DNA of 64,000 bases from Anaeromyxobacter sp. Fw109-5 (GTDB lineage Bacteria; Myxococcota; Myxococcia; Myxococcales; Anaeromyxobacteraceae), in contig NC_009675.1 of the NCBI RefSeq assembly GCF_000017505.1, forward strand, positions 310,001-374,000. The letters are read 5' to 3'. Below, one piece after another: positions 7,740 to 21,729 of this stretch. A model generated the notes under the pieces. That model ran no database searches. It worked only from the letters and a program-made list of their open reading frames with translations, and was not told the origin of the DNA. Made by a program: the position numbers and the translations under genes. Numbering within the stretch: position 1 is the stretch's first letter; every line of letters starts with the position of its first letter.

Positions 7740-9302
<1,563 letters not shown>

Positions 9303-9308
9303 GGGGCG

Positions 9309-9321
9309 GGGGCGCAGCCCC
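9309..9321. terminator. small hairpin between convergent genes
   Basis: GGGGC-GCA-GCCCC hairpin in the 21-bp gap between pccB and the convergent DUF2231 gene. It has no T-tract and is a weak terminator candidate. Confidence 0.3.
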
Positions 9322-9323
9322 GT

Positions 9324-9941
9324 TCAATGGATCTCGGGCTCGGCCCCGGTGCCCGCCTCGGCGATCGGCCCGAGCGCGGACCGCTGCACCCGCTCCCGGC
9401 TGGTCACCGCCCGGTAGGCCCGCTGCAGCAGCCAGCCGAGCCCGCGCCCCGCGTCTCGCCCCAGGCGCGCCATCCCGTGCGCCGAGAAGAGCGGGGGCGA
9501 CTCGGCCGCCGCGCCGCCGAGCGCCGTCACGCCGGCGCCGTGCGTGTAGACGAGCTCTCCCCCGAGGTAGGCGGTGTAGCCCGCCGCCCCCGCGGCGAGC
9601 AGCCCGCTCAGGGCGGAGGTGAGGTTCGCGTGGTTGCGCGCGCGCCAGCCGGAGACGCCGGCGGCCGCGAGGACGATGCAGAGGTTCCCGATCCCGTGTG
9701 CGAACATCATCTCGCGCGCGTGGGTGGAGCGGAGCTCGATCTCCTGCGAGGCCGCCATGCCCGTGAGCCCCGCCGCGAGCCCCGCCGACGCGGCTCCCCA
9801 CCAGAGGTTGCGACCGAGCCGGTCGAGCCGGCGGTCGCGTGGACGGAGGGCGGCGGCCAGATCCACCAGCGCCGCCGCGGGGAGGAGCACGAGCGGGGCG
9901 TGGACGAGGGACGGGTGCAGCTCGTGCGTTCGCATCGTCAT
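9324..9941 (-). CDS. DUF2231-family membrane protein
   Basis: 205 residues from the ATG whose first base is 9941 (MTMRTHELHPSLVHAPLVLL). A GAGAGG purine run 7 nt upstream supports this start; another ATG two codons later and one six codons earlier are alternatives. Four hydrophobic segments are visible: SLVHAPLVLLPAAALVDLAA, WGAASAGLAAGLTGMAAS, GIGNLCIVLAAAGVSG and ALSGLLAAGAAGYTAYLGGE. The HP.lVH.P..l start and the helix spacing fit the DUF2231 family, small membrane proteins sometimes near haem or redox genes. Conserved His residues (HPSLVHA, AHGIGN) could be ligands. Function is not known. Confidence 0.7.
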   Translation of the reverse strand: MTMRTHELHPSLVHAPLVLLPAAALVDLAAALRPRDRRLDRLGRNLWWGAASAGLAAGLTGMAASQEIELRSTHAREMMFAHGIGNLCIVLAAAGVSGWRARNHANLTSALSGLLAAGAAGYTAYLGGELVYTHGAGVTALGGAAAESPPLFSAHGMARLGRDAGRGLGWLLQRAYRAVTSRERVQRSALGPIAEAGTGAEPEIH

Positions 9942-10064
9942 GGCGGGGCCTCTCCACACACGCTGCGGCCCGTCGGCGGCCGCCGCAACGGAGTCCGCTC
10001 GGCCCGCCGCCCGTCCCGCGGGCTCGCTTCACTGCGCGTGACGAGGACCCCCCAGGATGCGCGA

Positions 10065-10096
10065 GAGCCCGGCCCCCCTGCAGAGGAACCGGGCTC
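10065..10096 (-). terminator. terminator-like hairpin downstream of the cold shock gene
   Basis: Arms GAGCCCGG (10065-10072) and CCGGGCTC (10089-10096), 8 bp, just after the cold shock protein gene read on the minus strand. There is no T-tract, so it may be an mRNA-stabilising end rather than a true intrinsic terminator. Confidence 0.35.
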
Positions 10097-10121
10097 GGTG
10101 CCGAGCGATCGCGCGGGCGAC

Positions 10122-10325
10122 CTACGTCTTCCGCACGTTCGCGGCCTGAAGGCCCTTCGGGCCCTTCACGACGTCGAACTCCACCTTCTGACCCTCGGCG
10201 AGGCTCTTGAAGCCGTCGCCCTGGATCGCGCTGTAGTGGCAGAAGACGTCCTCACCGCCGTTGTCCTGGGTGATGAAGCCGAAACCCTTCGCGTCGTTGA
10301 ACCACTTCACGGTGCCAGTCGCCAT
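10122..10325 (-). CDS. cold shock protein (CspA family)
   Basis: 67 residues, the usual size for a single cold shock domain that binds single-stranded RNA or DNA. RNP1 is KGFGFI (residues 13-18) and RNP2 is DVFCHY (26-31), where the more usual DVFVHF has Cys29 and Tyr31. The opening [18 protein letters not shown] is canonical. The gene stands alone with its own promoter and an AT-rich leader carrying a hairpin at the predicted 5' end of the mRNA. A GAAAGAGATG run precedes the start codon. Role as RNA chaperone is family knowledge; cold induction is not shown by the sequence. Confidence 0.95.
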
Positions 10326-10366
10326 TCAACATCTCTTTCGCTGGTTCGACCGCCGGTATGACGTTC

Positions 10367-10390
10367 GGTCCACCCGAAAAATGATGGACC
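10367..10390 (-). promoter_or_regulatory. 5'-terminal hairpin in the cold shock gene leader
   Basis: Inverted repeat GGTCCA/TGGACC with a 12-nt AT-rich loop, placed at the predicted transcription start (about 10389). It would cap the 5' end of the mRNA as a hairpin. Compare the structured cspA leaders of other bacteria; this one is short and not homologous by eye. Confidence 0.4.
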
Positions 10391-10395
10391 AAAAA

Positions 10396-10424
10396 TCTCT
10401 ATCCGAAAAAAACGCAAGGGTCGA
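10396..10424 (-). promoter_or_regulatory. cold shock gene promoter (TCGACC-17-TAGAGA)
   Basis: On the minus strand the -35 TCGACC occupies 10419-10424 and the -10 TAGAGA 10396-10401, separated by 17 nt that include a run of seven T. The leader to the ATG is about 64 nt. Confidence 0.5.
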
Positions 10425-10491
10425 GATGCGGCGTCCCGCGCGGGCAATCCGCTTTGACCACAATCAATGTGTCTCGAAAGGGTGCTCCGGG

Positions 10492-11664
10492 CTAGGCGCC
10501 GGCCGCGGCCGCCGCGAGCGCGGGGGCGGCCTCGAAGGCGCCGTCGTCCGTCGCCAGGCGCGCCTCGAGCTGCGCGAGGAGCTCCGCCGCGGTGGGCAGC
10601 GTCGTCACGTCACGCTCGCCGATGCGGACGAGGCTCTGGCCCGTGTAGAAGAGCCCGTTCTCCTCGTCGCCCTTCACCGCGGCGGCGAGCAGGGCGTCGG
10701 TGATGCAGAAGCTCTCCTTGAAGCCGCTCGTGCGGCAGACGCAGAGCCCCTCGCCGAGGCACTCGATGCAGGCCTTCTTGCGCCCGAGGTAGCCGTCCTT
10801 GCCGAACCACCAGGCCTTGGAGCGCGGCGGGACCGCCTCGCCGCGCGCGAGCTTCTCGGTGAACGCATTCCGCACCGCCCGCGCCTTCATCCCCTTCACG
10901 CAGCTGGTGATGATCGCGACGTCGTCCTCGCCCTTGCCGAGGTGCATCGCCTTGAACGCAGGGTGAACGTCGCCGTCGGCGCACGCGAGGAAGCGCGTCG
11001 CGAGCTGGACGCCCGCCGCGCCGCCGCGGAAGAAGCGGGCCACGTCGGACCCGTCCACGCCGCCCGCGGCGACCACCGGCAGCGACGTCGCCGAGAGCAC
11101 CTCGCGCGTGAGCGTCGGGAGCGAGTGGCCGATGTCCCCGATGTGCCCGCCCGCCTCGGAGCCCTCGGCGACGACGAAGTCCGCGCCCCACTTCTCGTAC
11201 ATCGCCGCGAGCCGTCCGGAGGAGACGATGCCCGCGAACGGCACGCCGCCCTCCTTGCACCAGCGGACGATCTCGCGGGAGATCCCGGCGCCCTGCACGA
11301 TGAAGGAGACCCGCTCCTCGATGGAGAGGCGGGCGAGGAGCTCGAAGTCGGCCTTGTTGATGGCCGCCATCAGGTTGACGCCCACGAAGCCTCCCGGGGC
11401 TTCGCGGCGCGCGCGGCGGATCTCGGCGCGGAGCTGCTCCGGCGTCTTGAGGACCGCGGAGATCGTGCCCACGCCGACGAGCCGGGCGCCCCGGTGCGCG
11501 GCGACCTTGCCGCTCACGCCATCCGACGCGTGGATGCCCATCCCGCCCTGGACGAGCAGGCGGCGCCCCGACCGGACGATCGCCTCGATGGCGGCGCGAT
11601 CGAGGCGGGCCAGCGGCGCGGAGGTCTCCTCGGCGTGCAGCGGCGCGGGATCGGTGACGGGCAT
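10492..11664 (-). CDS. nitronate monooxygenase / FabK-like FMN protein with Cys-rich tail
   Basis: 390 residues; AAGGAG lies 9 nt upstream of the ATG. It is a TIM-barrel flavoprotein of the 2-nitropropane dioxygenase/FabK superfamily. Marks are the N-terminal LLVQGGMGIHASDG, GVNLMAAINKADF, the FMN phosphate segment VVAEGSEAGGHIGDIG, LPVVAAGGVDG and GAAGVQLATRFLAC. Beyond the usual barrel it carries CIECLGEGLCVCRTS, a cluster of four Cys in ten residues, with another Cys in KESFC. That is unusual for the family and could bind iron-sulfur or zinc. Substrate is not predictable: nitronates, enoyl-thioesters and other electron acceptors all occur in the superfamily. It is upstream of the cold shock gene but has a separate 165-bp spacer. 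Confidence 0.75.
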   Translation of the reverse strand: MPVTDPAPLHAEETSAPLARLDRAAIEAIVRSGRRLLVQGGMGIHASDGVSGKVAAHRGARLVGVGTISAVLKTPEQLRAEIRRARREAPGGFVGVNLMAAINKADFELLARLSIEERVSFIVQGAGISREIVRWCKEGGVPFAGIVSSGRLAAMYEKWGADFVVAEGSEAGGHIGDIGHSLPTLTREVLSATSLPVVAAGGVDGSDVARFFRGGAAGVQLATRFLACADGDVHPAFKAMHLGKGEDDVAIITSCVKGMKARAVRNAFTEKLARGEAVPPRSKAWWFGKDGYLGRKKACIECLGEGLCVCRTSGFKESFCITDALLAAAVKGDEENGLFYTGQSLVRIGERDVTTLPTAAELLAQLEARLATDDGAFEAAPALAAAAAGA

Positions 11665-11868
11665 TTGGTGAAGCTCCTTCGCGCCCGGGGTGGAGACGGC
11701 GGGACGCGAGGCGGAACCCTACGATCCCGGTGTCACCCGAGCGTCACGGCTCCCGCCGAAATCCTTCGACGCGACGCGTAAGCGGGCCTGCGGGCGGTCG
11801 CCCCCACGACGCGCTGCGTCCCGCTCAACCGGGGCGCCCGCGTGAGGTACGCTCGGCCGGCACGCGCC

Positions 11869-13203
11869 ATGACCTCACGCTCGCTCGAACCGAAGCCGCT
11901 CGTCGTCGCCGTGGAGATGGGCTACGGGCACATGCGCGCCGCGATGCCGCTCGCGGATGCGCTCGGCACGGAGGTGCTGCAGGTGGACAAGGCGCCGCTC
12001 GTGGCGCCGGGCGAGGAGCGGCTGTGGCAGCGGGTGCGCCGGACCTACGAGGGGGTCTCCCGCCTGTCGCAGGTGCCGTGGGCCGGCGCGCCGCTCCGGC
12101 GGGCGCTGGAAGCGGTCACCGACATCCCGCGCCTCTACCCCTACCGCGACCTCTCCGCGCCCACCCGCGGGGTCCACGCGCTCGACCGGCTCGTGCGGGG
12201 GCGGGAGCTGGGCCGCGGGCTGGTCGCCGAGCTCCGCCGGACGGGCGCGCCGCTCCTCACCACCTTCTACTCGCCGGCGATCGTCGCCGACGCGGCCGGC
12301 GTGGAGCGGGTCTTCTGCGTCGCGACCGACTCGGACCTGAACCGGATCTGGGCGCCGGTGGAGCCGGGGCGCACGCACATCCGCTACCTGGTCCCGACCC
12401 GCCGCGCCGCGCGGCGGCTCCGATCGTACGGCGTGCCGGAGGACCGGATCACCTTCACCGGCTTCCCGCTGCCCGACGCGCTCGTGGGCGGGACCGCGCT
12501 GGGTGCGCTCAAGCGGAACCTGGCGGCGCGGATCGTGCGGCTCGATCCCTCGGGCGAGTTCCGCCGATCGATCCCCGAGGAGCTCGCGCACTTCCTCGGC
12601 GCCCTCCCGGCCGAGGAGGAGGGCCGGCCGCCGCTCCTCGCCTTCGCGGTCGGCGGCGCCGGGGCGCAGGCGGGGATGGCCGCGGAGCTGCTGCCCGGCT
12701 TCCGCCCCGCGCTGGAGGGCGGAGCGCTGCGGATCTGCCTCGTGGCGGGGGTGCGCGCCGAGGTGGCGGCCCGCTTCGCCGAGATCGTCCGGCGCGCCGG
12801 GATGGAGCCGCTCCTGGGCGGGCCGCTGGAGATCCTGCTCGCCCCCGGGTTCCGCGAGTACTACGCGCGCTTCAACGCGCTCCTCGCGCGCACCGACGTG
12901 CTGTGGACGAAGCCCTCGGAGCTCACCTTCTACGGCGCGCTGGGGATCCCGCTCGTGCTGGCGCCGCCCGTGGGGGTTCACGAACGGTATAACCTCCGCT
13001 GGGCGCGGGAGAGCGGCGCCGGGCTGAAGCAGCGGGACGCACGGTTCGCCTCGGAGTGGCTCGCCGACGGGCTCGCCGACGGCGTGCTCGCCGCCGCCGC
13101 CTGGGCCGGCTACATGCGGCTCCCCAAGTTCGGCCTGCAGCGCATCCTCGAGACGGTGGGCGCCGCGCCCGAGGCGCGCATCGCGGCCCCCCGCGGCGGC
13201 TGA
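11869..13203 (+). CDS. GT-B glycosyltransferase-like protein
   Basis: 444 residues from ATG 11869 (MTSRSLEPKPLVVAVEMGYGHMRAAMPLADALG). The opening VVAVEMGYGHMRAAMPLADAL matches the first strand and Gly-rich turn of GT-B enzymes such as MurG and the diacylglycerol glucosyltransferases (GGGH.RA.aL). Later segments FAVGGAGAQAGMAAELLPGF and the C-terminal donor-site-like DVLWTKPSELTFYGALGIPLVLAPPVGVHERYN also fit. The following gene is a PlsC acyltransferase, so a role in glycolipid or cell-envelope lipid synthesis is a reasonable inference. I cannot name the donor or acceptor. An in-frame start at 11842 is less likely. Confidence 0.6.
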   Translation: MTSRSLEPKPLVVAVEMGYGHMRAAMPLADALGTEVLQVDKAPLVAPGEERLWQRVRRTYEGVSRLSQVPWAGAPLRRALEAVTDIPRLYPYRDLSAPTRGVHALDRLVRGRELGRGLVAELRRTGAPLLTTFYSPAIVADAAGVERVFCVATDSDLNRIWAPVEPGRTHIRYLVPTRRAARRLRSYGVPEDRITFTGFPLPDALVGGTALGALKRNLAARIVRLDPSGEFRRSIPEELAHFLGALPAEEEGRPPLLAFAVGGAGAQAGMAAELLPGFRPALEGGALRICLVAGVRAEVAARFAEIVRRAGMEPLLGGPLEILLAPGFREYYARFNALLARTDVLWTKPSELTFYGALGIPLVLAPPVGVHERYNLRWARESGAGLKQRDARFASEWLADGLADGVLAAAAWAGYMRLPKFGLQRILETVGAAPEARIAAPRGG

Positions 13204-13278
13204 GGCCGACGTGTGCGGCGGCCCCGCGGCGCCCGCCCGCCGCTTGCCGCGCCGCCAGGGGCGGAGGAGGATGCGCCC

Positions 13279-14052
13279 GTGCTGCGGGCCTTCTCGGTCG
13301 TCTACTGGGTCTTCTTCGTCGCCACGCTGCCCATCCTGTTCCTGGGGGCGGCGCTGGTGTTCCTCGTCACCGTCCCGTTCGACCGGCGCCGCGTCGCGGT
13401 CCACCTCTACTCGTGCGCCTGGGCCACCTTCTACGTCCTCGCGAACCCGCTCTGGAGCACCTCGATCCACGGCCGCGAGCGGCTCCCGTGGAAGGGCGCC
13501 GCGGTCCTCGTCGCGAACCACCTCTCGCTCCTCGACATCCTCGTCGTGTACGGGCTCTTCCGTCCCTTCAAGTGGGTGTCGAAGGCCGAGATCTTCCGCG
13601 TGCCGTTCGTCGGCTGGAACCTGTGGCTCAACGACTACGTGGCGGTGAAGCGGGGCGACCGGGAGTCGATCCGGGAGATGATGGACCGCTGTCGCGCCCA
13701 CCTCGCGCGCGGCTCGCCGGTGATGCTCTTCCCGGAGGGGACCCGCTCCCGCGACGGCCGGCTGGGGCCGTTCAAGGACGGCGCCTTCCGGCTCGCGATC
13801 GAGGCGGGCTGCCCGGTCATCCCCCTCGTCGTCAGCGGCACGGGCGACGCCCTCCCCAAGCACGGGCTCGTGCTGCGCCAGCGGATGCGAGCGCGCGTCG
13901 AGGTGCTCGAGCCGCTGCATCCGGAGGACTTCCCGGCCTGCGACGCGCTCCGCGACGCGGCCCGCGCCGCGATCGCGGCCGCGCTCCCCGAGGCCAACCG
14001 GCCGGCGGGGCCGCTGCGATCCGCGCCGCCGGGGTTGCCGCAGGTCCGCTGA
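13279..14052 (+). CDS. 1-acyl-glycerol-3-phosphate acyltransferase (PlsC family)
   Basis: 257 residues from GTG 13279, preceded by a strong GGAGGAGG ribosome binding site; the earlier ATG at 13213 has none. An N-terminal hydrophobic helix (about 3-32) anchors it in the membrane. The catalytic HX4D motif is NHLSLLD (His81, Asp86), the second motif includes KWVSKAEIFRVPFVGWN, the third is FPEGTRSRDGRLGPFKDG and the fourth is VIPLVVSGTG. It would acylate lysophosphatidate or a related lysolipid. It follows the glycosyltransferase-like gene by 75 bp on the same strand. Confidence 0.9.
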   Translation: MLRAFSVVYWVFFVATLPILFLGAALVFLVTVPFDRRRVAVHLYSCAWATFYVLANPLWSTSIHGRERLPWKGAAVLVANHLSLLDILVVYGLFRPFKWVSKAEIFRVPFVGWNLWLNDYVAVKRGDRESIREMMDRCRAHLARGSPVMLFPEGTRSRDGRLGPFKDGAFRLAIEAGCPVIPLVVSGTGDALPKHGLVLRQRMRARVEVLEPLHPEDFPACDALRDAARAAIAAALPEANRPAGPLRSAPPGLPQVR

Positions 14053-14133
14053 CGTCCGGGCGGGCGCCCGCCGCCGCGCCCGTGGCCCGGCCGCCGCGCT
14101 GCGCCGCGCCGGGGTCACGCGCATGTTCTCGGC

Positions 14134-14610
14134 ATGGCGGGCGAATACCAGGTGACGGGCGGATACGGCGACGCGGTCCCGGGGACGGTCGGCCCCGACG
14201 CGATCGACGGGCGCGTGGAGTGGGTCGACGTGGCCGGGCAGAGCCTCGCGGAGCGGCTGGAGGCGCGGCTCGGCTCGGAGGTGGATCTCCGCAAGGTCCT
14301 GCTCGGCGTGCTCGTCCCGCTCGCCGGCGCGCTGCACGGGGAGCCCACCCGCGCCATCGCCGCGCGGCTGCCGTACCCGCTCGCGCGCGAGCTGCTAGAC
14401 GCCGACGACGGCGTGGCGCGCGTCCCGGCCGGCGTGGAGACCTACCTGCGCGACGTCGCGGAGCTCGTCCAGCACCCCGTCCCGAGCGCCGCCCTCTACG
14501 CGCGCGCGGTCCTCGACACGGTGCGCGAGGCGTTGCCCGCGGAGGCGGCGTCCGAGGTGGAGCGCCGGCTCCCGGCGGCGCTCGCCGCGCTCTGGCGCGC
14601 CGCGCGCTGA
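14134..14610 (+). CDS. uncharacterised protein, possibly DUF2267-like
   Basis: 158 residues from ATG 14134. After a polar N-terminus (MAGEYQVTGGYGDAVPGTVG), the body is helical with SLAERLEARLGSEVDLRKVL, IAARLPYPLARELLDADDG and a closing helical stretch. The alternation of alpha-helices and the RLP-phi-.-LARELL segment recall DUF2267 proteins, but the match is weak and I do not assign a function. Its stop lies 10 bp from the convergent histidine kinase gene. Confidence 0.5.
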   Translation: MAGEYQVTGGYGDAVPGTVGPDAIDGRVEWVDVAGQSLAERLEARLGSEVDLRKVLLGVLVPLAGALHGEPTRAIAARLPYPLARELLDADDGVARVPAGVETYLRDVAELVQHPVPSAALYARAVLDTVREALPAEAASEVERRLPAALAALWRAAR

Positions 14611-14620
14611 CCGCGGGGCG

Positions 14621-15865
14621 TCACGCGGTGGGGCGCGCGACGCAGCGGCGCGGGAGGTGCACCGTCACGATCGTCTCGCCGTCGTGCGAGCTCGCCTCGA
14701 CCTCGCCTCCGTGCCCGCGCACGATCTGGCGGGAGATGTAGAGGCCCAGGCCGAGCCCGGAGGCCTTGCGGCTCTTCTCGTCCGGCCCGCGCGCGAACGG
14801 CTCGAAGAGGTGAGAGAGCACCTCCGCCGGGATGCCCGGCCCGCCGTTGCGAACGTGCAGCAGGAGCCGCTCCGCATCGTCGCCGTCCACCTCGACGCGG
14901 ACGGGGACCGCGGGGTCGCCGTGGTCGATGGCGTTCGACACGAGGTTCGAGGCGACCTGCTCGAGCCGGTCGGGATCCCACTCGCCCGCGGGGTCGCCGT
15001 GGACGGCGATCTCGATGGCGCGATCGCTGTTCACGGCGCGGAGCTCGTCCACCACCTTGCGGGCGATGGCGTCGAAGCTCGCCGGGCACGGGTTGATCGG
15101 GATGCCGTTGCCGAGCCGGGTCCGGGTGTAGCTGAGCAGGTCCTGGATGATGCGGCCCATGCGGCCGGCCGACGAGCGCATCCGCTCGATGGCGCGCGCC
15201 TGCCAGCCCTCGAGCGCGCCTTTCCGGTGCAGCAGCGCGGCGGACATGTGGATCGCGCCGAGCGGGTTGCGCAGGTCGTGCCCCACCACGCCGAGGATGA
15301 AGTCGACCGTCCGGCGCCGGTTCTCGAGGTCGCCCTCGGCGCGGCGGAGCGTCTCGCGGGCGTCCTCCTGGGCGCGGGCGAAGCGCGCGCGATCGATCGT
15401 ACGGGCCGCGCGCTCCGCCGCGACGCGGAGCAGCAGCAGCGCGTCCGCGTCGAGCGGCTCCTCGCCGCGAGTGCCCGCGAGGAGCGCGCCGGGCGCGGCG
15501 CACGCGAGGAGCGGAGCGCCCGCGCCGTGGCGCGTGCCGGGCGGGAAAGGCGAGCCCGGCCGTCCGGTCGTGCGGAGCGTCCCGGAGTCCGCCACCTCGG
15601 CGGCGAGGCCGGCGGCGATCGCCGCGGGCGCTCCTTCGTCCAGCCCCACGGCGGCGACGAGCTCGAGCCGGTCTGCCTCGCGCACGAGCAGCGCGACGGA
15701 GTCGATGGCGGGCACGACCTCCGCCAGCGCACCGAGGAGCCGTCGGAGCGCGTGCTCCTCCGGCTCGACGGCGAGGAGGCGCTCGAGGCCGCCGGCGAGC
15801 GGCACGCGCGTGCGCTCGGAGGCTTCGTCACCCTCGGGCTCGCGGCGCACGACGTCCTCTGGCAT
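14621..15865 (-). CDS. GAF-domain sensor histidine kinase
   Basis: 414 residues from ATG 15865 (MPEDVVRREPEGDEASERTR). No membrane segment is visible, so it is cytosolic. A GAF-like sensor domain covers about residues 28-165 (LLGALAEVVPAIDSVALLVR, LRVAAERAARTIDRARFA), then a short coiled coil. The H-box is VVGHDLRNPLGAIHMS with His196 as the phosphorylated residue. The ATP-binding boxes are N (NLVSNAIDHG), G1 (NGGPGIPAEV), F (LFEPFARGP) and G2 (GLGLGLYISRQI). No response regulator is adjacent, so it is an orphan kinase. Divergent from accC across 218 bp. Confidence 0.88.
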   Translation of the reverse strand: MPEDVVRREPEGDEASERTRVPLAGGLERLLAVEPEEHALRRLLGALAEVVPAIDSVALLVREADRLELVAAVGLDEGAPAAIAAGLAAEVADSGTLRTTGRPGSPFPPGTRHGAGAPLLACAAPGALLAGTRGEEPLDADALLLLRVAAERAARTIDRARFARAQEDARETLRRAEGDLENRRRTVDFILGVVGHDLRNPLGAIHMSAALLHRKGALEGWQARAIERMRSSAGRMGRIIQDLLSYTRTRLGNGIPINPCPASFDAIARKVVDELRAVNSDRAIEIAVHGDPAGEWDPDRLEQVASNLVSNAIDHGDPAVPVRVEVDGDDAERLLLHVRNGGPGIPAEVLSHLFEPFARGPDEKSRKASGLGLGLYISRQIVRGHGGEVEASSHDGETIVTVHLPRRCVARPTA

Positions 15866-15983
15866 CGCTGGACATCGTGGGCGCGCCGCCGTCCGGCGGG
15901 AACCCCCCGTGACGCGCTCCGCGGCTCCCTGCCAGTCGGCGCCCCGCACGTTGCGGACTCGAGGGGTCGATGTGGGAGAGGCT

Positions 15984-16012
15984 TTGCGTGCGCGTGCGCG
16001 CGCAGGTATCGT
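15984..16012 (+). promoter_or_regulatory. candidate accC promoter (TTGCGT-17-TATCGT)
   Basis: TTGCGT at 15984-15989, 17-nt spacer, TATCGT at 16007-16012, leaving a leader of about 65 nt before ATG 16084. It would serve the accC-carrier-mutase group. Confidence 0.4.
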
Positions 16013-16083
16013 GGCCCGCTCCCGAGCGCCCCGCATCCCGCGCCGGACCCCGCTGCGACCGAGAACGTCCTCGAGGCCCGAGA

Positions 16084-17616
16084 ATGAGCCCGAAGAAGCC
16101 CATCCGGAAGGTCCTCGTCGCCAACCGCGGCGAGATCGCCGTGCGGGTCATGCGGACCTGCCGGGAGATGGCGATCGCGACGGTGGCGGTCTACTCCGAC
16201 GCGGATCGCGGCGCGCTGCACGTGCGCAAGGCGGACGAGGCCGTCCACATCGGGGCCTCCCCCGCGCGCGACAGCTACCTCGTGGTCGAGAAGGTGGTCG
16301 ACGCCGCCAAGAAGGCCGGCGCCGACGCGATCCACCCTGGCTACGGGTTCCTCTCCGAGAAGGCCGAGCTGGCCCGCGCGTGCGAGGCGGCGGGCATCAC
16401 CTTCGTCGGCCCGAGCGCCGCGTCGATGGACGCGATGGGAGTGAAGACCACCGCCCGCAGGAACATGAACGCGGCGGGGGTGCCGACCGTGCCCGGGTCG
16501 GAAGGCCCGATCGCCGACGAGCAGGAGGCCAAGGCCTTCGCGGACGCGATCGGCTACCCCGTCATGATCAAGGCTGCGGCCGGCGGCGGCGGGAAGGGCA
16601 TGAAGAAGGTGGAGCGGGAGGCGGACTTCCTCTCGCTGTGGGCCTCCGCGCGGCGGGAGTCGGCGGCAGCCTTCGGCGACGACCGGCTCTACCTCGAGAA
16701 GTTCCTGGACCGCCCGCGCCACGTCGAGATCCAGGTGTTCGCCGACGAGCACGGGAACGTCATCCACCTCGGCGAGCGCGAGTGCTCGATCCAGCGCCGG
16801 CAGCAGAAGGTGGTGGAGGAGAGCCCGAGCTGCGTCCTCGACGAGCGGATGCGCGAGGCGATGGGGCAGGTCGCCGTGCGGGCCGCGAAGGCGGTGGGCT
16901 ACCGCGGCGCCGGGACCGTCGAGTTCCTGGTGGACGCGCAGCGGGACTTCTACTTCCTCGAGATGAACACGCGGCTGCAGGTCGAGCACCCCGTCACCGA
17001 GATGCTCACCGGGCTCGATCTCGTGCGCATGCAGCTCGAGGTCGCCCGCGGCGAGCGGATCCTCGCGCAGGACCAGGTCGTCCGCCGCGGCCACGCCATC
17101 GAGGCCCGCGTCTACGCCGAGGACCCGGCCCGGCGCTTCCTGCCGTCGCCCGGGAAGATCACCTACCTGCGCGTGCCGGGCGGCCCGGGCGTGCGCGACG
17201 ACTCGGGCGTGTACACGGGCTGGGTGGTCCCGCAGTTCTACGATCCGATGATCTCGAAGCTCGTCGCCTGGGCGCCCACCCGGGAGCAGGCCATCGAGCG
17301 GCTCATCCGCGCCCTGGGCGAGTACACCGTCCACGGCATCGCCACCAACGTGGCCTACCTCGCGGCGGTGCTCGATCACCCCGCCTTCCGCTCGGGCGAT
17401 TACGACACCGGCTTCTGCGTCGCGTACGAGCGCGACCTGGTGCGGCCGCCGGACCCTGCCTTCGAGGGCGTGGCGCTCATCGCCGCCGCGGTCGAGGCGT
17501 TCCGGCGCGATCGCGACGCCGCCGAGACGTTCGCCGCGCGGGCCGGGGCGGCGGCGACGCGCTCCGGCTGGGCGCGGCTCGGGCGCGCCCGGGCCCTGCG
17601 GGGAGGTGGACGGTGA
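16084..17616 (+). CDS. accC: acyl-CoA carboxylase biotin carboxylase subunit
   Basis: 510 residues from ATG 16084 (MSPKKPIRKVLVANRGEIAV). It carboxylates biotin on the carrier subunit using ATP and bicarbonate. Domains in order: pre-ATP-grasp (VLVANRGEIAVRVMRTCREM), ATP-grasp with the Gly-rich loop IKAAAGGGGKGMKKV, the metal and substrate site FLEMNTRLQVEHPVTEMLTG, and the C-terminal biotin carboxylase domain (GHAIEARVYAEDPARRFLPS). The length matches a separate AccC/PccA-type BC subunit. Its stop overlaps the GTG start of the carrier subunit by 4 nt, so the two are translationally coupled. It works with pccB at 7.7-9.3 kb. Confidence 0.93.
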   Translation: MSPKKPIRKVLVANRGEIAVRVMRTCREMAIATVAVYSDADRGALHVRKADEAVHIGASPARDSYLVVEKVVDAAKKAGADAIHPGYGFLSEKAELARACEAAGITFVGPSAASMDAMGVKTTARRNMNAAGVPTVPGSEGPIADEQEAKAFADAIGYPVMIKAAAGGGGKGMKKVEREADFLSLWASARRESAAAFGDDRLYLEKFLDRPRHVEIQVFADEHGNVIHLGERECSIQRRQQKVVEESPSCVLDERMREAMGQVAVRAAKAVGYRGAGTVEFLVDAQRDFYFLEMNTRLQVEHPVTEMLTGLDLVRMQLEVARGERILAQDQVVRRGHAIEARVYAEDPARRFLPSPGKITYLRVPGGPGVRDDSGVYTGWVVPQFYDPMISKLVAWAPTREQAIERLIRALGEYTVHGIATNVAYLAAVLDHPAFRSGDYDTGFCVAYERDLVRPPDPAFEGVALIAAAVEAFRRDRDAAETFAARAGAAATRSGWARLGRARALRGGGR

Positions 17617-18125
17617 GCACGTACGTCGCCCTCCTCGACGGCGGAAGGCGCGAGGAGTCGATCGAGGTGAGGCAGACCGGCGCCGGCACCTTCGAGGTGC
17701 GCCTCCGCGGCGAGGTGCACGTCGTCGACGCCTACAAGCACGACTACGGGACGCTGTCCCTCATCGTGGACACCGCGAGCTACACGGCCACGCTGGATCG
17801 CCGCGACGCCCACGTGCGGGTCCGGGTGAGGGACTCGGTGTATCCCATCGAGATCCTCGACGAGAAGAAGCTCCGCATACGGCGCGCGACGGCCAGGTTC
17901 ACGGTCGACGGCCGGCAGATCCTCACGGCGCCGATGCCGGGGAGGATCGTGCGGGTGCTGGCGAAGGCCGGCGACGCGGTGAAGGCGGGTCAGGGGCTGG
18001 TGGTGGTCGAGGCGCTGCAGATGGAGAACGAGATGAAGAGCCCCAAGGACGGCAAGGTCCTCGAGGTCCTCGTCGCGGAGGGCCAGGCCGTCGAGGCGAA
18101 CGCGAAGCTCTGCGTGGTCGAGTAG
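17613..18125 (+). CDS. biotin/lipoyl carrier subunit of acyl-CoA carboxylase, acceptor Lys replaced by Gln
   Basis: 170 residues from GTG 17613, overlapping the accC stop. Residues 1-95 form a beta-rich N-terminal region (VHVVDAYKHDYGTLSLIVDT) as in carboxylase BT-like domains. Residues about 103-170 are a biotinyl domain: ILTAPMPGRIVRVLAKAGD, GQGLVVVEAL, then KSPKDGKVLEVLVAEGQAV. The site that should read EAMKM or EALKM reads EALQMENEM: codon CAG at 18018-18020 gives Gln136, 34 residues from the C-terminus, exactly where the biotinylated Lys belongs. Without it, the protein cannot carry biotin in the normal way. The rest of the fold is intact, so it is not an obvious pseudogene. Confidence 0.85.
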   Translation: MSTYVALLDGGRREESIEVRQTGAGTFEVRLRGEVHVVDAYKHDYGTLSLIVDTASYTATLDRRDAHVRVRVRDSVYPIEILDEKKLRIRRATARFTVDGRQILTAPMPGRIVRVLAKAGDAVKAGQGLVVVEALQMENEMKSPKDGKVLEVLVAEGQAVEANAKLCVVE

Positions 18126-18188: not shown

Positions 18189-19838
<1,650 letters not shown>

Positions 19839-19845
19839 CCGGCCG

Positions 19846-21729
19846 GTGAGCGACGGGAACGGGCAGGGGAAGGCGGCCGGGGCGCAGCAGCCGGCGGACG
19901 AGGCGCCGCCGCGGCTCGACCGCGTGCCCCCCGGCTACCGCCCGCCGCCCGTCCGCGCCGCGACCCCGCCGCCGCGCGTGGCGCCCGAGGCTTCGGCTCG
20001 CGCCGCTCCGCCCGTCCCGCCCCGCGCGTCGTACGGTCTCGCCGAGCGCGAGGTGACGGCCGCGGCTGCGATCGCCGCGGGCCTCGCGCGCGAGGGATCC
20101 CTCCGCGCGGAGGGGGCGCTGCACCTGTTCCTGCTCGCCGCCGCGAACCAGGCGCACGGGCGGCTCGCGCTCGCCTCCGGGCCGGTGCGCTACGCGCTCA
20201 CCTTCCGCCGCGGCACCGTGGAGCACGTCGCCTCGGCGGCGCCGGAGGACGGCCTCGGCCGGTTCCTCGTCCGGCGCGGCGCGCTGACGCCCGAGCAGCT
20301 CGTCCGGGCGGACGGGGCGTGCGCGCCCGGCGGCGACCTCGTCGCGACGCTCGTGGCCGAGCGGCTCCTGGCCCCCTCGGACGTCGCGGCCCTCCTCGGC
20401 GAGCACGGCGCGTCGCTCGTCGCGCGCGCCCTCGCCGTCGAGGACGGGAGCTGGAGCTGGGAGCCCGGCGCGGCGCCGCCGCCGTCCGGCTTCCCGCTCG
20501 GCAACCCGTACGGCATGGCCGCCGCCGCGGTGCGCGCCGTCGACGCCGCAGGCGCGGAGCGCCGCCTGGGCGATCGCGCCGGGCGCGCCGCCTCGCGCGT
20601 GGTCGGACGCGTGCGCCTGGAGGACCTGCGGCTCGCCCCCCAGGAGGCGCGCCTCACCGGCCTCTTCGACGGGCGGAGCGCGCTGGAGCTCGCCGCCGCC
20701 CATCCCGCCGACGCGGCGACGATCCTGCGCGTCGCGCTGCTCCTCGCCGAGGCGGAGCTGCTCGCGTTCGGAGCGGCGCGCGCCTCGCCGCCCCGCGCGG
20801 TCCCGGGCGCGAGCGCGTCCGCGTCCTCCGCCGCGGCCGCGCAGCCGACCTCGACCCCGACCGCGCCGCGAAACCCTGAGGCCGGTCACCCTTCCGCGGC
20901 CTCCGGCCGCGACGCTCAGGACAGGCCGCGCGTCGCGTCCTCCGCCGCGGCGCGAGCCCCGACCTCGACCCCGACCGCGGGAGCGCGAACGGCCGCTCAT
21001 CCCGAGCGTAGCGCCGCCGCGGCAGCGGCGGAGCGAGCTCGAGGGACGCCACCCGTTCCCGTCGATCCCGCCACGCTGCGTGCGCTCCTCCAGCGGCTCG
21101 CGGCCGCCGACCACTTCGAGGTCCTCGGCGTGAAGCGCGACGCCGCCCCGGCGCAGGTGAAGGTCGCCTACTTCCGGCTCGCGAAGAGCTATCACCCGGA
21201 CGCGGTGCCCGCCTCCGTCTCCGCGGAGGTCCGCGGCCTCTGCGCCGACGTGTTCGCCAAGGTGAGCGCCGCCTGGGCCGTGCTCGGCGACGACGCGCAG
21301 CGCGCGAAGTACCTGGACGAGCTCGCCTCCGGCGGCGCAGCGGACGTGGACGTGATGCGGATCCTCCAGGCGGAGAACGTGTTCCAGGCGGGCACGGTCC
21401 TCGTGCGGGCACGCCGCTACGCGGAGGCGCTCGAGAAGTTCCGCGACGCGGCGGTCCTCAACGAGGACGAGCCGGAGTTCGCGATCTGGCTCGCGTGGTG
21501 CGAGTTCCTCGTCGCGAAGGAGCCGCGGGCGCAGCACGCCGCGAGCGCCGCCGCCATCGAGGACGGGCTGCGCCGGAACGCGCGCTGCGCGCCGGGGTAC
21601 CTGTTCCTCGCCCAGATGGCCAAGATCGTGGGGGACCTCTCCCTCGCGGAGCGCCATCTCCGCCGCGGCCTCGCGGTCGCGCCGGAGCACGTGGACCTCG
21701 TCCGCGAGCTCCGCTACCTCAGGAAGTGA
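19846..21729 (+). CDS. DUF4388 / J-domain / TPR mosaic protein
   Basis: 627 residues from GTG 19846, 7 bp after the mutase stop. After a Pro/Ala-rich start, residues about 75-300 look like a DUF4388 (PATAN-like) region: GALHLFLLAAANQAHGRLAL, YALTFRRGTVEHVASAAPED and two helical LxxRGALTPEQL-type units. A low-complexity linker (about 320-400) leads to a J domain: HFEVLGVKRDAAPAQVKVAY with the HPD motif in AKSYHPDAVP. The rest is TPR-like helices (AGTVLVRARRYAEALEKFRD, LFLAQMAKIVGDLSLAERHL). This architecture is typical of Myxococcota signalling or co-chaperone proteins. The J domain implies a DnaK partner; the target is unknown. Confidence 0.75.
   Translation: MSDGNGQGKAAGAQQPADEAPPRLDRVPPGYRPPPVRAATPPPRVAPEASARAAPPVPPRASYGLAEREVTAAAAIAAGLAREGSLRAEGALHLFLLAAANQAHGRLALASGPVRYALTFRRGTVEHVASAAPEDGLGRFLVRRGALTPEQLVRADGACAPGGDLVATLVAERLLAPSDVAALLGEHGASLVARALAVEDGSWSWEPGAAPPPSGFPLGNPYGMAAAAVRAVDAAGAERRLGDRAGRAASRVVGRVRLEDLRLAPQEARLTGLFDGRSALELAAAHPADAATILRVALLLAEAELLAFGAARASPPRAVPGASASASSAAAAQPTSTPTAPRNPEAGHPSAASGRDAQDRPRVASSAAARAPTSTPTAGARTAAHPERSAAAAAAERARGTPPVPVDPATLRALLQRLAAADHFEVLGVKRDAAPAQVKVAYFRLAKSYHPDAVPASVSAEVRGLCADVFAKVSAAWAVLGDDAQRAKYLDELASGGAADVDVMRILQAENVFQAGTVLVRARRYAEALEKFRDAAVLNEDEPEFAIWLAWCEFLVAKEPRAQHAASAAAIEDGLRRNARCAPGYLFLAQMAKIVGDLSLAERHLRRGLAVAPEHVDLVRELRYLRK

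Follow-up and report, generated by a model that had tools for sequence, protein, structure and literature searches.

Loss of the biotin-acceptor lysine in a putative PCC carrier subunit of Anaeromyxobacteraceae and its possible conversion into an assembly subunit

The gene at positions 17613-18125 of the window (the whole stretch of 64,000 nucleotides analysed here, i.e., bases 310001-374000 of a genome assembled as one contig of 5,277,990 bases, with an estimated completeness of 99.96%) appears to code for a genuine subunit, putatively of a propionyl-CoA carboxylase (PCC), whose normal biotinylation site can no longer be used. Biotin is vitamin B7; the function of a carrier domain centres on its acceptor lysine, whose loss is expected to end the use of the gene. 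According to the sequence comparisons, the lysine has gone at least three times independently in one family of soil bacteria, the Anaeromyxobacteraceae, and the protein is still under selection. As the best explanation of the data, which taken as a whole we regard as about evenly balanced between right and wrong, we propose that the product is a non-biotinylated, BADC-like assembly subunit, with biotin supplied in trans, most likely by a small free carrier (sBCCP).

The lysine-less subunit and its gene neighbourhood

The original prediction described a biotin carrier subunit with Gln (CAG at 18018-18020) in place of the acceptor lysine, 34 residues from the C-terminus. The re-reading of the ORF agrees: it runs from a GTG start to a TAG stop, codes for 170 residues (the protein contains GQGLVVVEALQMENEMKSPKDGK) and has CAG as codon 136. 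The motif is E-A-L-Q-M-E-N-E, compared to E-A-M-K-M in the orthologues, Met135 being also replaced, by Leu. A change of a single base (CAG from AAG) had been considered as well; the closest relatives have GAG GCG ATG AAG ATG where the window has GAG GCG CTG CAG ATG, so that two bases differ, and other relatives lost the lysine otherwise (Arg, Gly, truncation, deletion). The relatives matched by sequence were Anaeromyxobacter terrae, A. soli, A. oryzae, and one Anaeromyxobacter MAG. The features of the region are listed below, in window coordinates; automatic gene calls are unreliable in GC-rich loci and served only as a guide.

7740 (approximate) to 9302, + strand: PCC beta (PCCbeta), carboxyltransferase of the PCCbeta/MmdA type; start picked by inspection, frame open from 7689
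10492-11664, - strand: nitronate monooxygenase, between PCCbeta and BC
11842-13203: DUF6938 protein, between PCCbeta and BC
13213-14052: acyltransferase, between PCCbeta and BC
14134-14610: DUF2267 protein, between PCCbeta and BC
14621-16036, - strand: histidine kinase, between PCCbeta and BC
16084-17616, + strand: putative PCC biotin carboxylase (BC) subunit; catalytic residues intact; 4-base overlap with the carrier gene
17613-18125, + strand: putative lysine-less BT + biotinyl subunit of a split PCC alpha, 170 residues (Pfam, human PCC alpha match)
17613-17897, + strand: N-terminal BT-like region (BC-CT interaction), residues ~1-95; predicted structure of low confidence
17913-18122, + strand: biotinyl domain, residues 101-170; predicted fold intact
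17931-17942, + strand: PMPG motif, residues 107-110; intact in the window, altered in older lysine-less relatives
18015-18020, + strand: CTG CAG (Leu135 Gln136) replacing ATG AAG (Met Lys), biotin acceptor site
18189-19838, + strand: methylmalonyl-CoA mutase N-terminal (catalytic) domain protein
19846-21729: DUF4388 + DnaJ-domain protein, directly after the mutase gene

The sequence GGGGAGG lies just 5' of the GTG start, which overlaps by four bases (GTGA) the TGA stop of the BC gene (17614-17616). The upstream gene, called accC in the original prediction and described there as translationally coupled, looks like the BC of a PCC, with PCCbeta and the mutase nearby, and not like an acetyl-CoA carboxylase gene. 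In the window, some 6.8 kb separate PCCbeta from the downstream BC gene, while the two genes adjoin in several other Myxococcota families; the genes separating them (9302-16084) are unrelated.

The domain is otherwise well conserved, as had been stated: the protein matches Pfam Biotin_lipoyl (PF00364) with E=1.2e-16, and only residues 135 and 136 are altered among the invariant sites discussed below. Human PCC alpha aligns with residues 24-160, spanning the biotinyl region and the adjoining BT region, the latter corresponding to the domain through which BC and CT interact in PCC alpha (PMC3199775). This match, together with the nearby BC, PCCbeta, and mutase genes, is why the gene is read as the BT + biotinyl part of a split PCC alpha; substrate assignments such as this one are putative. 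In PCC alpha (human 7ybu, bacterial 3n6r), the BC, BT, and biotinyl parts follow one another as they do here, with a sequence match over the last two; the window version differs in being split into two genes and in lacking the acceptor lysine. The split subunit of other Myxococcota is orthologous and has the same gene order behind BC, although all 60 sampled copies have E-A-M-K-M.

In the predicted structure, residues 101-170 have a pLDDT of 84-95 and superpose on the biotin carrier protein 5gua with an rmsd of 0.8 A; the model was built with six sequences, and the N-terminal BT part came out with low confidence. Of the marks of a carrier protein, the biotin/lipoyl fold is predicted to be present and the lysine of E-A-M-K-M is absent (Gln136); in being an otherwise conserved domain that lacks the biotinylation motif, with selection persisting after the loss, it is BADC-like. 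Another lysine nearby was also considered as the acceptor and discarded, the protein of G023 (Arg type) having no lysine at 135-148; K142 and K145 of the window protein fall outside the hairpin turn.

Distribution of the lysine and selection on the lysine-less copies

The alignment with orthologues from Myxococcota, which the original prediction had recommended, located the loss in a single family: Lys136 is kept in 60/60 sampled orthologues outside Anaeromyxobacteraceae (EAMKMEN), and, among the sampled orthologues, it is missing only within this family. All 69 lysine-bearing orthologues, 60 from other families and nine from Anaeromyxobacteraceae, have both Lys136 and Met135; as the nine were chosen for bearing the lysine, the independent count is 60/60.

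Within Anaeromyxobacteraceae, the lysine is present in G001-G006, G008, G009, and G010. Among the family orthologues compared, the Gln form occurs in the window genome only, the Arg form (CTG CGG) in G019 and G023, and the Gly form (ATG GGG/GGA) in G015 and G016. The orthologue of G011 (L059:7168-7462) stops after about 95 residues, the biotinyl domain being gone; the resulting BT-only protein sits directly behind an intact BC. In G022, an in-frame deletion fuses the first 29 BC residues with the last part of the biotinyl domain (CREM|RMENEL...); this remnant (L068:8833-9027, about 65 codons open) looks like a small fossil of an Arg-type gene. In G014, PCCbeta and the mutase remain and both BC and carrier are gone. 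A search for lysine-less motifs in 195 Myxococcota genomes gave four matches, all of them at this locus and in Anaeromyxobacteraceae, and zero control matches; the search covered most lysine-replacing codons, and G016 escaped it solely through a difference in a later codon.

In a tree built on BC, mutase, and PCCbeta, whose deep within-family nodes are weakly supported, the window sits among lysine-bearing sister genomes and G011 next to G012 (the carrier gene of the latter is not on its contig), the Gly and Arg types falling elsewhere. This placement of the lysine-less genomes points to at least three independent losses. The PCCbeta of G017 is a foreign copy: at this locus (L064:6619-9040), a gene with just 57% identity has taken the place of the native one, and a carrier with an intact EAMKM comes after it.

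Selection was evaluated through codon models run in an in-house script (F3x4, fixed tree), in which the lysine-less tips were given a dN/dS of their own. For the biotinyl domain, dN/dS was 0.062 in lysine-less and 0.073 in lysine-bearing copies, i.e., there was no difference, and a value of 1 was rejected (2dlnL 85). Excluding codons 135-136, dN/dS was 0.059 for the Gly pair (2dlnL 38 against 1), near zero for the Arg pair (2dlnL 44), and 0.087 for the window branch (2dlnL 5.8). Synonymous sites are near saturation, which makes these values approximate, and the contrast with neutrality is large; simple pairwise estimates are higher (0.25-0.46), again with no difference between lysine-bearing and lysine-less pairs. 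Since the residue is shared within the Gly and the Arg pairs, the loss predates the split in each, and the constraint must have come after the loss. The lysine-less copies are under strong purifying selection, at a level like that of the lysine-bearing ones; a pseudogene is ruled out for the Arg and Gly pairs, the test on the window branch being weaker (2dlnL 5.8).

The partner genes are constrained as well. The dN/dS of BC was 0.058 in lysine-less genomes vs 0.062, and that of PCCbeta was 0.036 in genomes without a working carrier of their own vs 0.054. All sequences that cover the catalytic residues of BC have them intact (the contig of G019 covers the C-terminal part only).

Among the positions from 101 to 170 at which the 69 lysine-bearing sequences all agree, the lysine-less proteins differ only at 107, 108, 109 (in PMPG), 135, 136, and 140, and the glycines and other fold positions of the domain are retained. 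The window is altered only at 135 and 136, so its loss is probably the youngest. Changes clustering in both biotin motifs, together with a fold predicted to be intact, are as expected of a domain kept for its shape rather than for biotin.

Candidate carriers in the window genome

A second biotinyl protein had been proposed as something to look for, and the genome has five other biotinyl domains, all keeping the lysine, with one match to a biotin protein ligase (BPL). The domains belong to the ACC BCCP, a pyruvate carboxylase, two multi-domain acyl-CoA carboxylases, and the free sBCCP of 70 residues (ESMKMEM; G000:C1:4504855-4505064). It is followed by a crotonase-family gene (both lie within L070:4067-5065, G000:C1:4504066-4505064), whose second-best NCBIfam match, below the cut-off, is methylmalonyl-CoA decarboxylase.

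The sBCCP is found phylum-wide in Myxococcota, lysine-bearing Anaeromyxobacteraceae included. In nine of eleven sampled genomes from other families of the same order or class it lies directly behind a BC gene of its own, often with a crotonase gene behind it; in G155 the BC is 2.7 kb upstream, and in G054 no BC was found near it. In Anaeromyxobacteraceae, the searches revealed no trace of an sBCCP-linked BC, the crotonase gene being still present. An orphan carboxyltransferase of the methylcrotonyl-CoA type, clustered with genes for HMG-CoA lyase, acyl-CoA dehydrogenase, and enoyl-CoA hydratase, and also with no BC there, is the likely partner of the sBCCP. Both being without a BC, the sBCCP would have to borrow one, and the window BC seems the best candidate.

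Within the family, genomes with sBCCP strongly tend to lack a fused MCC (Fisher p=4e-5, kinship ignored). Among genomes at least 90% complete, sBCCP is present in 5/5 that lack the lysine and keep BC, and absent in 2/2 in which BC is deleted; the co-occurrence of lysine-less subunit and sBCCP is not significant by itself (Fisher p=0.12), and the association is suggestive only. G016 (Gly form) keeps sBCCP, yet its fused MCC is complete and it lacks an orphan carboxyltransferase; PCC is thus the most obvious remaining carboxylase needing sBCCP there. No sBCCP match was found in G019 (Arg type, 81% complete).

The idea that sBCCP occurs only in lysine-less genomes is false, given its phylum-wide distribution, and its presence alone is consequently not the trigger of the loss. 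Nor is an orphan sBCCP enough: in G054, G033, and G034, sBCCP is present, just two BC genes were detected, and the lysine is kept, so sharing alone does not cause the loss.

Possible explanations and comparison with known systems

In the proposed scenario, sBCCP would have become a shared carrier using the PCC BC in Anaeromyxobacteraceae, making the carrier function of the BT + biotinyl subunit dispensable. The BT region would still tie BC to PCCbeta, the biotinyl domain no longer acting as a carrier but being retained for structure or docking, and biotinylated sBCCP, with the window BC, would serve both PCCbeta and the orphan methylcrotonyl-CoA-type carboxyltransferase. Two steps are backed in other systems: PCCbeta of S. 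coelicolor, expressed in E. coli, yielded product although its alpha subunit was missing, apparently served by the ACC carrier of the host (PMC5509990), and BADC proteins help assemble BC with the biotinylated carrier in plants (PMC11926652). Of the three options originally offered, another carrier and a structural job are hence favoured, and are mutually compatible, whereas the change of a single base is disfavoured. Against the proposed scenario stands G011, which does without the biotinyl domain entirely.

In the main alternative, which we judge unlikely, the PCC alpha arm would be slowly disappearing (lysine, then domain, then genes), the lysine-less subunit being a slowly decaying relic and BC being retained only to serve sBCCP and the orphan MCC-type carboxyltransferase. 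The graded series of Gln, Arg, Gly, truncation (G011), in-frame deletion (G022), and complete loss (G014) fits such a decay, and so do the erosion of PMPG in the older lysine-less lineages and the separation of PCCbeta and BC in the window, compared to their adjoining in several other families; however, the biotinyl domain is not relaxed, neutrality being strongly rejected in the Arg and Gly pairs, whose loss predates the split, and PCCbeta remains strongly constrained. A sequencing or assembly error in the window genome is far less probable still: although the species is represented by a single sequence, two substitutions in adjacent codons would be required, the Arg-type relatives share the Met to Leu change alongside the loss of the lysine, and the single-contig genome is nearly complete (99.96%).

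The same constraint, the predicted intact fold, and the overlap with BC would also suit a negative regulator competing with the biotinylated carrier for BC or PCCbeta and damping carboxylation, an inhibitor model having once been proposed for plant BADC (PMC11926652). This is rather improbable, for no second BT-containing carrier was found in the window genome, the carrier to be regulated is the very one that has been replaced, and G011 retains only the BT part. It is quite improbable, too, that PCCbeta draws carboxybiotin from another carboxylase (the ACC BCCP, a CT-BC-BCCP enzyme, or other), with sBCCP and the lysine-less subunit irrelevant to PCC. The other five lysine-bearing domains and the single BPL, the persistence of PCCbeta in G014 and G022 without the PCC BC, and the apparent service of a foreign PCCbeta by the E. 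coli carrier (PMC5509990) point in this direction, but the selection on the coupled BC and lysine-less subunit would be left unexplained.

Returning to the assembly subunit, we tentatively suggest, as a single claim held with somewhat less assurance than the reading of the window gene, that Anaeromyxobacteraceae repeatedly turned the carrier of one carboxylase into a non-biotinylated assembly subunit, the carrier job having moved to a free biotin protein that two carboxylases share, and that this would be a bacterial counterpart of plant BADC caught at several stages. The graded series (intact, Gln, Arg, Gly, truncated, deleted) makes the sequence of events directly testable. If an assembly role is true, the carrier and scaffold roles of the biotinyl domain are separable, carriers can be shared in trans among biotin-dependent carboxylases, and annotation from a domain match alone will misname such proteins.

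Non-biotinylated carrier-like proteins are already known as a kind, from plants. A literature search for a bacterial non-biotinylated BCCP, with most subscription papers outside its reach, found nothing relevant; as far as this literature goes, it is new for a bacterial PCC to lose the lysine of its only BT-type carrier recurrently within one family and in graded stages. Plant BADC (biotin attachment domain-containing), of the plastid acetyl-CoA carboxylase, is likewise a carrier-like protein without the biotinylation motif. However, BADC proteins stand beside the biotinylated BCCP of the same enzyme, whereas here several lineages have independently lost the lysine from the sole BT-type carrier of a bacterial PCC, a separate small protein being the candidate for the carrier role. 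The likeness would then be a functional analogy, lysine-bearing sister species pointing to a parallel origin. The AccE or epsilon subunit of actinobacterial acyl-CoA carboxylases is not known to be a biotinyl-domain protein. It is a supplementary subunit involved in subunit interaction (PMC3199775), and in this it would resemble the window subunit.
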